Below are positions 18,375-21,361 of a stretch of 48,358 bases of DNA, one piece after another; within the stretch, counting starts at the first letter, position 1, and every line of letters begins with the position of its first letter. The DNA lies in contig CAMDED010000048.1 in NCBI GenBank assembly GCA_945893365.1, forward strand, positions 1 to 48,358, in the 5' to 3' direction. The notes under the pieces are model-generated. The model did not search any database. It was not told the origin of the DNA and was given only the letters and a program-made list of their open reading frames with translations. This stretch comes from Candidatus Sulfopaludibacter sp. SbA3. Lineage in GTDB: Bacteria > Acidobacteriota > Terriglobia > Bryobacterales > Bryobacteraceae. Made by a program: the position numbers and the translations under genes.

Positions 18375-18380
18375 AAATCC
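18375..18380. repeat. Target-site duplication, left copy (AAATCC)
   Basis: AAATCC occurs immediately outside the left terminal inverted repeat and again at 21,356-21,361 immediately outside the right one. This is the footprint of a transposition event. Confidence 0.85.
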
Positions 18381-18406
18381 GGTAGTGGGTGATTGTTGCG
18401 TTGACG
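18381..18406. repeat. Left terminal inverted repeat of the element
   Basis: 26 bases identical to the reverse complement of 21,330-21,355. The outermost bases GG(T) agree with the ends of IS1-family elements. Confidence 0.92.
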
Positions 18407-18417
18407 GTGGTTTCTGA

Positions 18418-18780
18418 TCAGTCTTGTCCATATTCAAACAACAGTTGATCGGCTAGACCTTCCTTATCCTTCGTCACGACCCGACGAATCGCCTTGCTCT
18501 CAAAACTGATCTTCAAGATCTCCTCCTCGGTGAGCCCGAGGTGTCGTATCAGATGCGTGGAGGTGTGCTGCCCCTTTTTCTTTCCGTCCTTCCCCTCTTT
18601 CCACTCATCTCTCAGGTAGTCTTCTAGTGCTAGCCTTTTCTTGCGCCACTGGCATCGCGTCCGGAGGTACGCGTACACCCCCACGAGCGCGATGATGCCC
18701 GTGACGATTGAGAAAATGCTGTCGAGGGCAGAGAGTGCTGAGCAGGGCATACACGTGATGATACTCACGTGCGGAGCCAT
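18418..18780 (-). CDS. Passenger membrane-anchored protein coupled to transposase
   Basis: Not recognised. The 120-residue product starts at the ATG embedded in TGATG, where the transposase stop shares its A with this start; that implies translation of both from one message. The N-terminus has two Cys (TCMPCSAL) and one membrane helix (LDSIFSIVTGIIALVGVYAYL, about residues 16-36). A basic linker (TRCQWRKKRL) and a charged cytoplasmic domain follow, with an LGLTEEEILKIS helix and a DKEGLADQLLFEYGQD tail. Winged-helix or effector-like folds are possible. A longer frame to 18,921 only overlaps the transposase. Confidence 0.65.
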   Translation of the reverse strand: MAPHVSIITCMPCSALSALDSIFSIVTGIIALVGVYAYLRTRCQWRKKRLALEDYLRDEWKEGKDGKKKGQHTSTHLIRHLGLTEEEILKISFESKAIRRVVTKDKEGLADQLLFEYGQD

Positions 18781-19765
18781 CAGGCAAGCAGTTCCGACAA
18801 GTCCCAAACGTGATCCGTGGTCCCCGCTTCCATCGCGGGCGTAACGCGGATCGACTTGTGAATCCGGCAGAAGTTGTAATAGGCGAAGTGCAGGCAGTAG
18901 GCGGACCAGAGATTCTCCCACTTCTTTGAGAAGCCATTCGTCAAGCGCGTCAGTCTGCGTATCTGCATTCTGATCGTGAGGTTCTGACGCTCGACAATCG
19001 AAGTGCAGATGCGTTCGGGATCAGGATTTCCGAGGACTGGGACCACCTCCACGGAGGCGACTTCGGCGGGGCTATATCGTGCTTCGCCTTCTTGCGGCGC
19101 GCGGTACACCTTGATCAGTTGCGCGTAGCTCACGCGATCCGCCAGCGTGTCGGAAATCGCGTTCACGTACGGGGCGAAGCCATCCGTTGTGATTTGGAAG
19201 GGCTGGTGCGCGATAGCATGCCGCAGCCCCTCGATGAAAATGTCCGTGGTGGCTTTGCTGCGGCGACCGAGAGCGAAGTTCAGAACCAACTTGCTGTGCC
19301 GTTCGATGGCGACGAAGCAATACTGATCGCCAATGGTTTCGTCGTGTTGTTCCTCGGGCCGCTTGTGGCCTTCCTTCTTCTTGATGAATCCCCAAACTTC
19401 GTCAGCCTCGACATCACGAACCGGAACGTTCACTATCAGCTTGCCCATGACCTTCTCACAGCGCTCGCCAGCCAGAGCGAGGGCCTTGAAGATTGTGTGC
19501 TTGTCGATTCCGGTGATCCGTGAGGTCGACGCGATAGAGTTCCCCTCCAAGAGCATCTTGATGGCGAGGGTGATTCTCTCTTCGGAGACGTACATCTCGC
19601 CCAAAGTAGGCGGTGCGCTTCGGTGTACGTCTTTCTGCACTGCGGGCAGCGGAAGCGGCGTAGTCCGTTGCGGTGCTTGCCGAACCGCTGGCACATAACC
19701 TCGCAGGAGGCGCATTCCATCGCCGCCGATTTTGCTTGCCGATCCGCAATCAACATATAGTCCAT
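18780..19765 (-). pseudogene. IS1-family transposase with a -1 frameshift
   Basis: DDE transposase. The N-terminal zinc-ribbon part (CASCEVMCQRFGKHRNGLRRFRCPQCRKTYTEAH) is in one frame. The HTH and catalytic parts (MYVSEERITLAIKMLLEGNSIASTSRITGIDKHTI, then DEVWGF, TTDGFAPYVNAI and VERQNLTIRMQ, which supply the three acidic residues) are in the -1 frame. The switch falls near 19,610-19,625, after TEAHR. I see no XXXYYYZ slippery heptamer in the right register there, so a 1-base indel is more likely than programmed frameshifting. The exact start is uncertain (ATG at 19,765, 19,756 or 19,720). The C-terminal signature YYNFCRIHKSIRVTPAMEAG is intact. Confidence 0.85.
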
Positions 19766-19823
19766 TGTAATGCTTAGGCGGGCAAGCTGCAATAGATAAT
19801 TGCTAAATGTTTACAGATTTTGC

Positions 19824-19852
19824 TTGCCACATTCTCGAAGACGCGGTATATT
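19824..19852 (+). promoter_or_regulatory. Promoter of the winged-helix passenger gene
   Basis: TTGCCA (19,824-19,829), a 17-base spacer and TATATT (19,847-19,852) each match consensus at five of six bases. The start of transcription would fall near 19,859, right at the AGAGGT RBS, giving a very short leader. Confidence 0.6.
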
Positions 19853-19870
19853 CAACGCAGAGGTAAACAT

Positions 19871-20698
19871 ATGGCAAGCACTGAAACAGTGGACGACGTG
19901 ATCGACCTGGAAGAAGCGTTGGTCCAATCTGATACACCAGGAGAGGTTGAATCCAAGCGGGAGCAATCCACTATCAGCTTTCCTTACCATGACTTGACGG
20001 ATGCAATCACGGTCGCCAAGGGCATACATGCATTCGGCGGAACATGCGAAAACGCGCAACTCGCCGCACAGCTACAAAGCACAGTAACAAGCGGCGGCTT
20101 CAGGCTGCGGCTGTTGGCAGCCAAGATCTTCGGCCTGATCACCTACAAGGAAGGGCGCAACACCCTGACTAGGCTTGGCGAGCAAATTTGCGATTCGAAG
20201 CAGGAAAAGGCCGCCAGCGCGGAAGCCTTCCTGAACGTGACGCTCTACCGGCAAGTATACGAGCGCTTTAAGAACGGTGCGCTTCCGCCCAATCAAGGTC
20301 TTGAGGCGGCCATCGCCGCAATGGGCGTCATTGAGAAGCAGGCGGGGAAGGCACGGCAGGTGCTGCAACGCTCGGCTAGCCAAGCGGGGTTCTTTTGGTC
20401 TGGCCAGGACCGATTGGTAATGCCGCCCATCAACGGCAGAGCAGACCAAGCAGCCCGCGCAGAAAAGAATCCCCCCCCGGACGGAGAGAAACCGAAAGGC
20501 GGCGGCGATGGTGGCGGTGGAAATACTCTGCACCCCCTCATTGCTGGCCTGATAAAGACCCTGCCCGCAGACGAAAACTGGCCCATCGAAAGGCGCGTGA
20601 AATGGCTACGCGCGGCGGCGCAGAACTTCGATCTCATCTACCAGGACAGCGGAGACGACTTTATCGAAATAAAGATTCAAAGGGGTACGGCGCAGTGA
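19871..20698 (+). CDS. Passenger protein, DUF5343-like winged helix
   Basis: A 275-residue passenger of the element. The N-terminal acidic tail (MASTETVDDVIDLEEALVQ) precedes a helical region AITVAKGIHAFGGTCENAQLAAQL and then GGFRLRLLAAKIFGLITYKEGRNTLTRLGEQI, which looks like a winged helix. This resembles the DUF5343 family, though that assignment is from memory of the pattern. A Pro/Gly-rich linker (PPPDGEKPKGGGDGGGG, about residues 200-216) joins a C-terminal domain HPLIAGLIKTLPADENWPIERRVKWLRAAAQNFDLIYQD. The ATG at 19,871 is chosen because of the RBS and promoter just upstream. Role unknown; DNA binding or regulation of the element is possible. Confidence 0.75.
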   Translation: MASTETVDDVIDLEEALVQSDTPGEVESKREQSTISFPYHDLTDAITVAKGIHAFGGTCENAQLAAQLQSTVTSGGFRLRLLAAKIFGLITYKEGRNTLTRLGEQICDSKQEKAASAEAFLNVTLYRQVYERFKNGALPPNQGLEAAIAAMGVIEKQAGKARQVLQRSASQAGFFWSGQDRLVMPPINGRADQAARAEKNPPPDGEKPKGGGDGGGGNTLHPLIAGLIKTLPADENWPIERRVKWLRAAAQNFDLIYQDSGDDFIEIKIQRGTAQ

Positions 20699-20747
20699 AG
20701 AAATTCGCGACCGGCCTATAAGTCCACATTCGCGGACCACCAGAGCG

Positions 20748-20767
20748 TGGGAGCCGAAAGGCTCCCG
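20748..20767 (+). terminator. Hairpin between the passenger gene and the tRNA
   Basis: A perfect GGGAGCC-GAAA-GGCTCCC stem with a GNRA-type loop lies 50 bases after the passenger stop and about 20 bases before the tRNA. There is no U-tract, so it may be a weak terminator or an RNA-processing structure rather than a true terminator. Confidence 0.35.
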
Positions 20768-20786
20768 TTCACTCCGGCGTCAACGC

Positions 20787-20875
20787 GCGGGTGTGGTGGA
20801 ACTGGAATACACAGCGGTCTTTAAAACCGCCGTCCTGCCAGGGAATTGTGGGTTCAAATCCCACCACCCGCACCA
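20787..20875 (+). tRNA. Leucine-type tRNA with anticodon UUA (would read UAA stop)
   Basis: The 89-nt cloverleaf is complete: acceptor GCGGGTG/CACCCGC (7 bp, perfect), D-arm GTG/CAC with GG in the loop, anticodon stem GCGGT/ACCGC (perfect), T-arm GTGGG/CCCAC around TTCAAAT, discriminator A, and an encoded CCA. The 17-nt variable region with a short stem makes it a type II tRNA. The D-arm spelling and A73 resemble bacterial tRNA-Leu. The anticodon loop is CTTTAAA, so positions 34-36 (20,821-20,823) are UUA, complementary to the ochre codon UAA. A single change (position 35, A to U) would derive it from tRNA-Leu(UAA). It lies inside the mobile element. Charging and expression are unproven. Confidence 0.88.
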
Positions 20876-20890
20876 TTGAAAACATCGGCT

Positions 20891-21169
20891 TCATTCAGCC
20901 TTTCCCTTAGCCCAACGCGCCTTAGCGGCCTGTTGGGCTATTGCTTTTCTTGCCTCTGGCGAGAGCTTCTCGGCTCTAATCTTCCCGCCTTTCGAGCCAC
21001 CTAGTTTTCCGAGCGCAACAGCGGCTGGGTTCTTCACCTTGACCGGCACCGGAAACGATATCACATTGCCCACGGCTTCCGCAGGCTCAACGGTGGCCTT
21101 TGCTGCCGCGATGCTTGCGCGTCTAGGCACGCCTTTATTATGCGGACTGCTGAATGACATCGTCAACAA
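20891..21169 (-). CDS. Small passenger protein with GGKxRAEKLSPEARKAI motif
   Basis: A 92-residue basic protein. The C-terminal half (ALGKLGGSKGGKIRAEKLSPEARKAIAQQAAKARWAKGKAE) belongs to a very common class of small bacterial proteins with a KGG-type motif and two predicted helices. Their function is unknown to me. The N-terminal half is low complexity. The start may be 21,169 or the ATG at 21,160. It overlaps the 3' end of the 69-aa gene by 32 bases, which suggests co-transcription. Stop is TGA. Confidence 0.6.
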   Translation of the reverse strand: MLTMSFSSPHNKGVPRRASIAAAKATVEPAEAVGNVISFPVPVKVKNPAAVALGKLGGSKGGKIRAEKLSPEARKAIAQQAAKARWAKGKAE

Positions 21170-21347
21170 TCGCCAGCGCCGCCCGTAGATTCTCTCGTGC
21201 TGCCGCCGTTCGGTTCTCTGGAAGTGCTGGGGCCGTCTCCAAAATGAGGTCGGCTTGCTCGATCAGGTTGCGGAGTGCTTGTAGCGCGTCGCGGTCAACT
21301 GCACCGGAAGGCAACGGGTCAGAATTTTTCGTCAACGCAACAATCAC
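21138..21347 (-). CDS. Small passenger ORF starting inside the terminal repeat
   Basis: A 69-residue helical protein (DALQALRNLIEQADLILETAPALPENRTAAARENLRAALAIVDDVIQQ), not recognised. Its GTG start at 21,347 lies within the right inverted repeat, so the transposon end supplies the start codon; a TTG four codons later is also within the repeat. It ends with tandem TAA TAA. If the neighbouring UUA-anticodon tRNA suppressed both, only five residues would be added before a TAG. Confidence 0.5.
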   Translation of the reverse strand: MIVALTKNSDPLPSGAVDRDALQALRNLIEQADLILETAPALPENRTAAARENLRAALAIVDDVIQQSA

Positions 21348-21355
21348 CCACTACC
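21330..21355. repeat. Right terminal inverted repeat of the element
   Basis: 26 bases forming a perfect inverted copy of 18,381-18,406. AAATCC follows at 21,356-21,361, duplicating the left flank. Confidence 0.92.
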
Positions 21356-21361
21356 AAATCC
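21356..21361. repeat. Target-site duplication, right copy (AAATCC)
   Basis: Matches 18,375-18,380 on the other side of the element. Confidence 0.85.

Follow-up and report, generated by a model that had tools for sequence, protein, structure and literature searches.

Laboratory ochre suppressors arise when a change of the anticodon makes a transfer RNA (tRNA) read a stop codon. Siguier et al. reportedly described IS1 and IS1595 transposons with passenger genes in 2009, and the original paper on allo-tRNAs is said to be one by Mukai et al. from 2017. According to excerpts of PMC7609411, allo-tRNAs are bacterial tRNAs, acidobacterial ones included, whose anticodon is unfit for the body, some of them directed at UAA; they are defined by an 8/4 or 9/3 acceptor branch and have mainly serine identity, and one allo-tRNA pseudogene overlapped a transposon-related open reading frame (ORF). 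Passages of three further papers report suppressor tRNAs in 0.3% of standard-code genomes (PMC13092985), amber (CTA) or opal (TCA) suppressor tRNAs in zeta crAss-like phages, sometimes without recoded genes (PMC12386605), and in-frame stops that are most frequent in the mobilome category (PMC7918605). Here we describe a tRNA with the ochre-type anticodon UUA within an IS1-like transposon of Candidatus Sulfopaludibacter sp. SbA3 (Acidobacteriota; Bryobacteraceae), located at positions 20787 to 20875 of the 48,358-nucleotide contig CAMDED010000048.1 (GenBank assembly GCA_945893365.1); this whole stretch was analysed and is called the window.

The window tRNA resembles the allo-tRNAs in the misfit between anticodon and body and differs from them in its canonical 7/5 acceptor branch and Leu-like body; given the 7/5 branch, it is not an allo-tRNA by structure. 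With the IS1 and IS1595 passenger transposons, the elements considered here have in common related transposases, terminal inverted repeats, and passenger genes; tRNA passengers of the present kind did not appear among the literature matches listed. The anticodon principle is that of laboratory ochre suppressors and of the sporadic bacterial suppressors as excerpted from PMC13092985, but the present tRNA is transposon-borne and was found repeatedly. Phage suppressors, as the passages of PMC12386605 describe them, are likewise mobile, whereas the tRNAs reported here are ochre-type and lie in insertion sequence (IS) elements. Among the open-access literature matches listed, none dealt with IS1 or IS1595 elements that carry a suppressor tRNA.

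ARAGORN called the gene as tRNA-Stop with anticodon tta at exactly 20787-20875 (+), the sole tRNA called in the window, and this segment scored 58 bits against Rfam RF00005 (gathering threshold 29; E 4.9e-10). Its features are as follows:

20787..20875, + strand: type II tRNA with Leu-like body, anticodon UUA, and encoded CCA (ARAGORN, RF00005, parts parsed)
20819..20825, + strand: anticodon loop CTTTAAA, with the TTA anticodon at 20821-20823 (sequence)

Every pair in the acceptor (GCGGGTG/CACCCGC), D (GTG/CAC), anticodon (GCGGT/ACCGC), and T stems is Watson-Crick. The T-arm reads GTGGG-TTCAAAT-CCCAC, the variable arm has 17 nt, the discriminator is A73, CCA is encoded, and the anticodon loop contains U33, UUA at positions 34-36, and A37-A38. 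A preliminary description made from the letters of the window had proposed an intact cloverleaf with a UUA anticodon, and ARAGORN, RF00005, and the parsed stems agree with it, the fold placing the anticodon at UUA. The window tRNA is thus an intact tRNA with an anticodon complementary to UAA, as expected of a candidate ochre suppressor, which would also have to be charged and to read UAA in the cell; it does not carry the UCA anticodon of a tRNA-Sec. By our own rule for typing bodies, which uses positions 14-15 and 73 as identity elements, it is Leu-like (A73, A14-A15, type II variable arm). Leucyl- and seryl-tRNA synthetases (LeuRS and SerRS) are the textbook synthetases without need for the anticodon, so Leu and Ser bodies should stay chargeable after an anticodon change.

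The tRNA is present as a single copy in a genome that has ordinary Leu and Ser tRNAs, Leu(UAA) among them. The same description had derived it from tRNA-Leu(UAA) by one substitution, and the body and discriminator do remain Leu-like; the anticodon arm of the host tRNA-Ser(UGA), GCGGTCTTGAAAACCG, is equally one base off the arm of the window tRNA, however, so this change is not the sole possible origin. As the window is a single contig of a draft genome, one might suspect an ordinary tRNA-Leu that was misread in sequencing or assembly. We regard such an error as extremely improbable, as the same loop occurs in other assemblies, in the similar tRNAs of loci L061 and L264 and in 39 more distinct tRNAs (mostly from patterns demanding the loop), and the host has its own tRNA-Leu(UAA).

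That the tRNA rides on an IS1-like element, as had been claimed, is borne out by 42-nt inverted repeats that enclose it together with a transposase:

18375..18380: direct repeat AAATCC in the left flank, possible target duplication (sequence)
18381..21355: IS1-like element of 2,975 bp that carries passengers (inverted repeats; G+C 56.5% versus 61.0% for the window)
18381..18422, + strand: left terminal inverted repeat, starting GGTAGTGGG (repeat search; 42 nt, 83%)
18780..19715, - strand: IS1-like DDE transposase, catalytic part, stop TGA (PF03400 and NF033558 scores)
21314..21355, - strand: right terminal inverted repeat (repeat search; 42 nt, 83%)
21356..21361: direct repeat AAATCC in the right flank (sequence)

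The transposase scored 25.9 bits against PF03400 (cut-off 24.1) and 54.6 bits against NF033558, below the cut-off of 100 for that family; the IS1595 families NF033547 and PF12762 were not among the families that it matched. GGTAGTG termini like those of the window element also occur in L005, L056, L264, L027, L061, L266, L276, L287, and L215. Target duplications of the IS1 family measure 8-9 bp; the adjacent direct repeat has 6 bp in the window and 8 bp in the flanks of the relatives L264 and L060.

Other UUA tRNAs were sought with the pattern TCTTTAAAAN{15,45}GGTTCRAAYCCC, which gave 13 loci in viral contigs and 78 in a collection of genomes from 84,980 species. ARAGORN called UUA tRNAs at 39 of these 91 loci, and the covariance model added three (L032, L043, L087), giving 42. 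Three more loci, L140, L105, and L264 (the same as L151), came from another pattern run on viral contigs, from a search with transposases, and from a pattern search within the phylum of the window, for a total, with the window, of 46 loci and 42 distinct UUA tRNAs. L150, which repeats the window, L151, and L095, L063, L068, and L074, which repeat identical tRNAs, were set aside before the counts; six loci where the model scored the pattern site at about 26-36 bits (L044, L048, L059, L070, L076, L099; archaeal, candidate-phylum, and other) were not counted as UUA tRNAs. Cultured carriers include Acidicapsa dinghuensis (L056) and Rhodovulum marinum (L063). L043, which ARAGORN reads with a four-base anticodon, and L087, which it reads as aaa, were counted as UUA from the covariance-model alignment. 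Because the anticodon is built into the patterns, its constancy among these tRNAs proves nothing, and it is their context that is informative. As a side observation, genes for tRNA-Glu and tRNA-Gly form long tandem arrays in the Marinomonas loci L041 and L077.

Regarding this context, two transposase groups were considered, namely F1, the IS1-like group of the window, and F0, an IS1595 group (L054 against NF033547, 198.9 bits, cut-off 75), and linkage was assigned by tblastn at E 1e-5. An F0 or F1 transposase was found at 23 of the 42 UUA loci of the main scans and at none of the 49 others (Fisher 2e-10, although the loci are not all independent), as well as at none of 30 tRNA loci from the host genome. 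The earlier idea of a mobile UUA tRNA therefore applies to a recurrent association and not to a single case. Among the 42 distinct UUA tRNAs, 12 are linked to F1, 13 to F0, and 2 lie beside a shared passenger gene alone, the remaining 15 having neither. In viral contigs, the amber version of the pattern matched 33 loci and the opal version 2, their lengths being varied; 29 carried an amber tRNA, an opal tRNA was called by ARAGORN in none, and an F0 or F1 transposase was present in 0 of the 35, a further difference from the phage suppressors. In 11 checked elements (the window, L005, L054, L055, L056, L060, L094, L096, L264, L027, and L061), terminal inverted repeats enclose both tRNA and transposase, with the end of the transposase gene running into a repeat arm in L005, L027, and L060; for L089 and L092, the repeat search gave no convincing element ends. 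The window tRNA is accordingly a real, intact ochre-type tRNA that belongs to a recurrent transposon-borne class.

The UUA anticodon is found on two kinds of body in both transposase groups. Six of the F1-linked tRNAs are Leu-like and 6 Ser-like, while the F0-linked ones comprise 10 Leu-like, 2 Ser-like, and 1 other, or 16, 8, and 1 for the 25 together (L004, a 75-nt type I tRNA, is labelled Ser-like by our rule). This distribution speaks for selection on stop decoding. The stems are also maintained: across 21 tRNAs, 18 of them UUA, 97.9% of stem cells are paired versus 36-57% in slid controls, and 18 of the 20 stem pairs were altered on both sides by compensatory change. Stem pairs are likewise kept by compensatory change in 52 distinct rows, which are not all UUA and come from an alignment fitted to structure. 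The window tRNA is 86.5% identical to that of L061 and 86.8% identical to that of L264, with 42-69% identity in the 100-bp flanks. These data bear on the idea that the tRNA is a neutral hitchhiker, in which case a transposon would have captured an ordinary tRNA for Leu or Ser and the anticodon of this tRNA would then have drifted. Sporadic suppressor tRNAs in 0.3% of genomes, as excerpted from PMC13092985, would fit such drift, as would L253, where a 5' fragment near an F1 transposase reads as ordinary tRNA-Leu(UAA) (22.9 bits). The repeated finding of UUA on two bodies and beside two transposase groups, conservation of the tRNA far above that of its flanks, and the compensatory changes all argue the other way, and none of the readable type II tRNAs in or beside surveyed elements (L105, L220, L264, L266, L276, L287, L351, L352) has an anticodon that fits its body by our rule. 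We therefore consider neutral drift very unlikely.

Surveys led by the transposase, without an anticodon filter, covered 152 loci. In 396 Acidobacteriota genomes, the F1 survey took the best 41 of the 77 places listed, besides that of the window, in 40 stretches that included roughly 4 kb of flanking sequence, contig ends permitting; the others covered 23 F1 loci in viral contigs, 36 + 16 F0 loci in viral contigs (one contig in both), and 39 F0 places in 37 stretches of the window's phylum, plus L340. A tRNA with a seemingly non-matching anticodon was present at 11 of the 152 loci, 3 of the 11 having UUA, and the anticodons recorded were UUA (three times), UAU, GUA, UGC, GGA, AGG, GCU, and ACU. 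The F1 elements of the phylum include UUA on a Leu-like body (L264), UAU on a Ser-like body (L266), GUA on a G73 body with C33 (L287), UGC on a type II body with C33 (L276), GCU on a type I body (L259), an aberrant tRNA with no readable anticodon (L269), and tRNAs resembling host tRNAs (L279, L280), with weaker model matches in L264, L269, L272, and L281. In viral contigs, L215 (F1) has ACU on a type I body, L220 (F1) a truncated Ser-like UUA tRNA, and L105 (F0) a UUA tRNA plus a type I GCU tRNA, and ordinary-looking tRNAs occur in some other F0 loci, e.g., L124, L127, and L348. No non-matching tRNA was called for F0 in the window's phylum (37 stretches and L340), with weak model matches in L381 and L386. 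The tRNAs of L266, L287, L276, L215, L351, and L352 lie between terminal repeats. It had been asked whether related elements might all carry an ordinary Leu anticodon; those found without a filter include UUA (L264, L105, and the truncated L220), besides other anticodons.

Several side observations belong to the same elements. Leu-like bodies with a Ser (GGA) and a Pro (AGG) anticodon were found in IS1595 elements at L351 4287-4372 and L352 4038-4124, and a Leu-like tRNA at L103 5149-5331, on a contig with an IS1595 transposase, is interrupted by about 95 nt, an intron or insertion. Type I tRNAs that carry a Ser anticodon, GCU or ACU, occur near such transposases at L060 2311-2388, L105 1602-1676, L259 1301-1378, and L215 2814-2889, two of the four adjoining a UUA tRNA; by hand reading, the anticodon stems are mismatched in those of L105, L215, and L259. 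The passenger search additionally returned L341, where a UUC tRNA on a Gly-like-looking body precedes an F1 transposase by about 100 nt.

Such sequences are relevant to the possibility that the tRNA-like RNA has a non-decoding job, for example, in regulating the element or in distracting tRNA-cleaving enzymes as a decoy, which we judge unlikely for the window tRNA. Other elements carry anticodons unfit for the body, by hand reading with C33 (L276, L287) or mismatched anticodon stems (the second tRNA of L105, L215, L259, L352), and some allo-tRNAs were reportedly not usable for translation in E. coli; the window tRNA, by contrast, retains the usual decoding features, and UUA recurs on two bodies.

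We also searched for a gene that would need the tRNA. The 33 ORFs of the window outside the element end in TAA (14), TGA (10), or TAG (9), in a list that includes some overlapping non-genes, which agrees with the earlier remark that genes of the window end in UAA; the four listed ORFs inside the element all end in TGA. For in-frame stops, six-frame ORFs with one stop read through were compared all against all in the first 40 UUA loci. Alignments spanning a stop numbered 21 for TAA, all inspected, and 75 for TAG and 83 for TGA, taken as a list. A decayed IS1595 transposase at L046 188-893 (relative to its tRNA), which adjoins a UUA tRNA, accounts for six of the TAA alignments. Two further kinds of candidate among the 21 were rejected, and the rest involve short or antisense-looking frames. 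The UAAs near F1 transposases lie upstream of the transposase start, a region where several elements show, by eye, a promoter-like TTGACA...TATAAT with an overlapping palindrome. L054, L055, and L090 share a frame 3' of the transposase that contains UAA in two of the three; its substitutions are concentrated at codon position 1, which places the real gene on the other strand. These 40 loci yielded no conserved gene that is both intact and interrupted by an in-frame UAA, the decayed transposase of L046 being the one exception to the absence of such stops, and the earlier suggestion that the tRNA serves its element thus gained no support, the listed ORFs of the window element ending in UGA.

A specific form of that suggestion is that readthrough of the transposase stop yields an extended transposase that controls transposition. 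The F0 group offers some grounds for it: all 11 UUA-linked transposases whose C-terminus is intact have TAG or TAA as their stop, whereas TGA closes 10 of the 33 unlinked ones with a visible stop, out of 35 unlinked loci (Fisher 0.046; L087, where the match stops early, and the decayed L046 excluded from the linked count). In 8 of these 11 the stop lies 0-2 codons past GKRLTY, with L054, L055, and L090 sharing a stretch (CVSK.F) in frame after the UAG/UAA stop, which may be coding or a DNA signal, and in the decayed transposase of L046 a single in-frame UAA stands at a position occupied by K or R in relatives. In contrast, the window transposase and the three other listed ORFs of its element end in TGA, which UUA cannot read, UUA-linked F1 transposases end in TGA in 8 of 12 cases (7 of 11 without L032, where the match stops early) versus 25 of 62 unlinked ones, L220 with its truncated tRNA being counted among the latter (p 0.12 and 0.19), and the in-frame UAAs near F1 transposases precede the start. 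As the sequences are related, the p-values of these contrasts are optimistic. Because F1-linked transposases end mostly in TGA and the listed ORFs of the window element do so throughout, a common role in cis is unsupported, and we hold it to be quite unlikely that the suppressor serves its own element, although a cis role within the IS1595 group is conceivable. Farther downstream, L054, L055, and L090 have a common small gene on the opposite strand.

The remaining features of the window element are its passengers and an additional frame of the transposase region:

18418..18921, - strand: ORF without known function, 3' of the transposase, stop TGA (ORF list; no Pfam)
19436..19792, - strand: overlapping ORF in another frame, whose start resembles by eye the N-terminal zinc-ribbon-like segment of relatives (ORF list, relatives' alignment)
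19871..20698, + strand: 275-amino-acid passenger protein, stop TGA (no Pfam or NCBIfam family)
20891..21169, - strand: small passenger with a GKLGGSKGGK...ARW motif (KGG-motif protein), stop TGA (phmmer)

The zinc-ribbon-like N-terminal segment (ORF 19436-19792) and the catalytic part (18780-19715, -) are seemingly in different frames, so the transposase copy of the window may be damaged or may frameshift in expression. The 275-amino-acid gene ends 88 bp upstream of the tRNA and has homologues in L060, L061, L339, and L340 (44-53% identical), and homologues of the KGG-motif passenger were found by phmmer in L027, L036, L060, L061, L068, L089, and L092. In L340 (G109:C3), both passengers adjoin an IS1595 transposase, which makes them common to the two transposase groups. 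Upstream of the transposase, a palindrome of the form ATGCTTGAGCG.TCAAGCAT lies between promoter-like hexamers in L036, L266, and L287 and partly in L005 and L060, and is likely a transposase operator. An AlphaFold fold of the passenger (mean pLDDT 47.7) was set aside. A search of solved structures with the window transposase gave no match, passenger homologues were not found in plasmids (three weak tRNA matches there), F2 homologues in viral contigs were not confirmed, and an empty site was not shown in two genomes of the same genus, the left flank being without match beside recO.

Taken as a whole, we lean moderately toward the reading that an IS1-like transposon carries, as a passenger, an ochre suppressor tRNA competent in decoding. 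The tRNA would be transcribed from the element, possibly together with the 275-amino-acid passenger gene, and trimmed by RNases, its CCA being already encoded. The host LeuRS, not needing the anticodon, would charge it with leucine (A73, A14-A15), and U34-U35-A36 would pair with UAA, and by wobble with UAG, in competition with release factors. The most likely outcome predicted from sequence is low-level readthrough in the recipient cell, that is, a weak mobile suppressor. Since no intact target gene of the element's own was found, a trans-acting role is proposed, in which the element would carry an informational suppressor that rescues nonsense mutations or imposes a cost on competing phages or elements; this role in the recipient is the likeliest one and also the weakest step of the proposal.

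Several observations weigh against this interpretation. For the 15 of 42 distinct UUA tRNAs noted above, neither such a transposase nor a shared passenger is visible, and the majority of surveyed elements in both transposase groups lack a tRNA. In viral contigs alone the contrast is weak, as just 1 of 5 UUA tRNAs of the first viral scan (L005) has an F0 or F1 transposase versus 0 of 29 amber tRNAs (p 0.15). Strong suppression would affect many host genes, and the search for in-frame UAAs in intact conserved genes, over the first 40 UUA loci, was negative. Furthermore, the C33 or mismatched anticodon stems read by hand in several other IS-borne tRNAs mean that part of the class may not decode.

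Stop suppressors are usually seen as mutations of the laboratory, as rare variants of hosts, or as tools with which phages recode. More tentatively than for the window tRNA itself, IS1-like and IS1595 transposons could form a spreading class of elements that change decoding, some of them carrying tRNAs, mostly with Leu- or Ser-type bodies, that have stop or wrong sense anticodons, UUA being a common one, and alter the fidelity of the code in each recipient. Related transposons in unrelated bacteria carry a like tRNA, and jumping genes may thus spread genes that read stop codons. If this is true, a transposon-borne class with UUA on two bodies would constitute a horizontal route by which termination and fidelity are altered, natural ochre suppressors would become available for genetic-code engineering, and it would become testable why suppressor tRNAs are retained by mobile elements that lack recoded genes.
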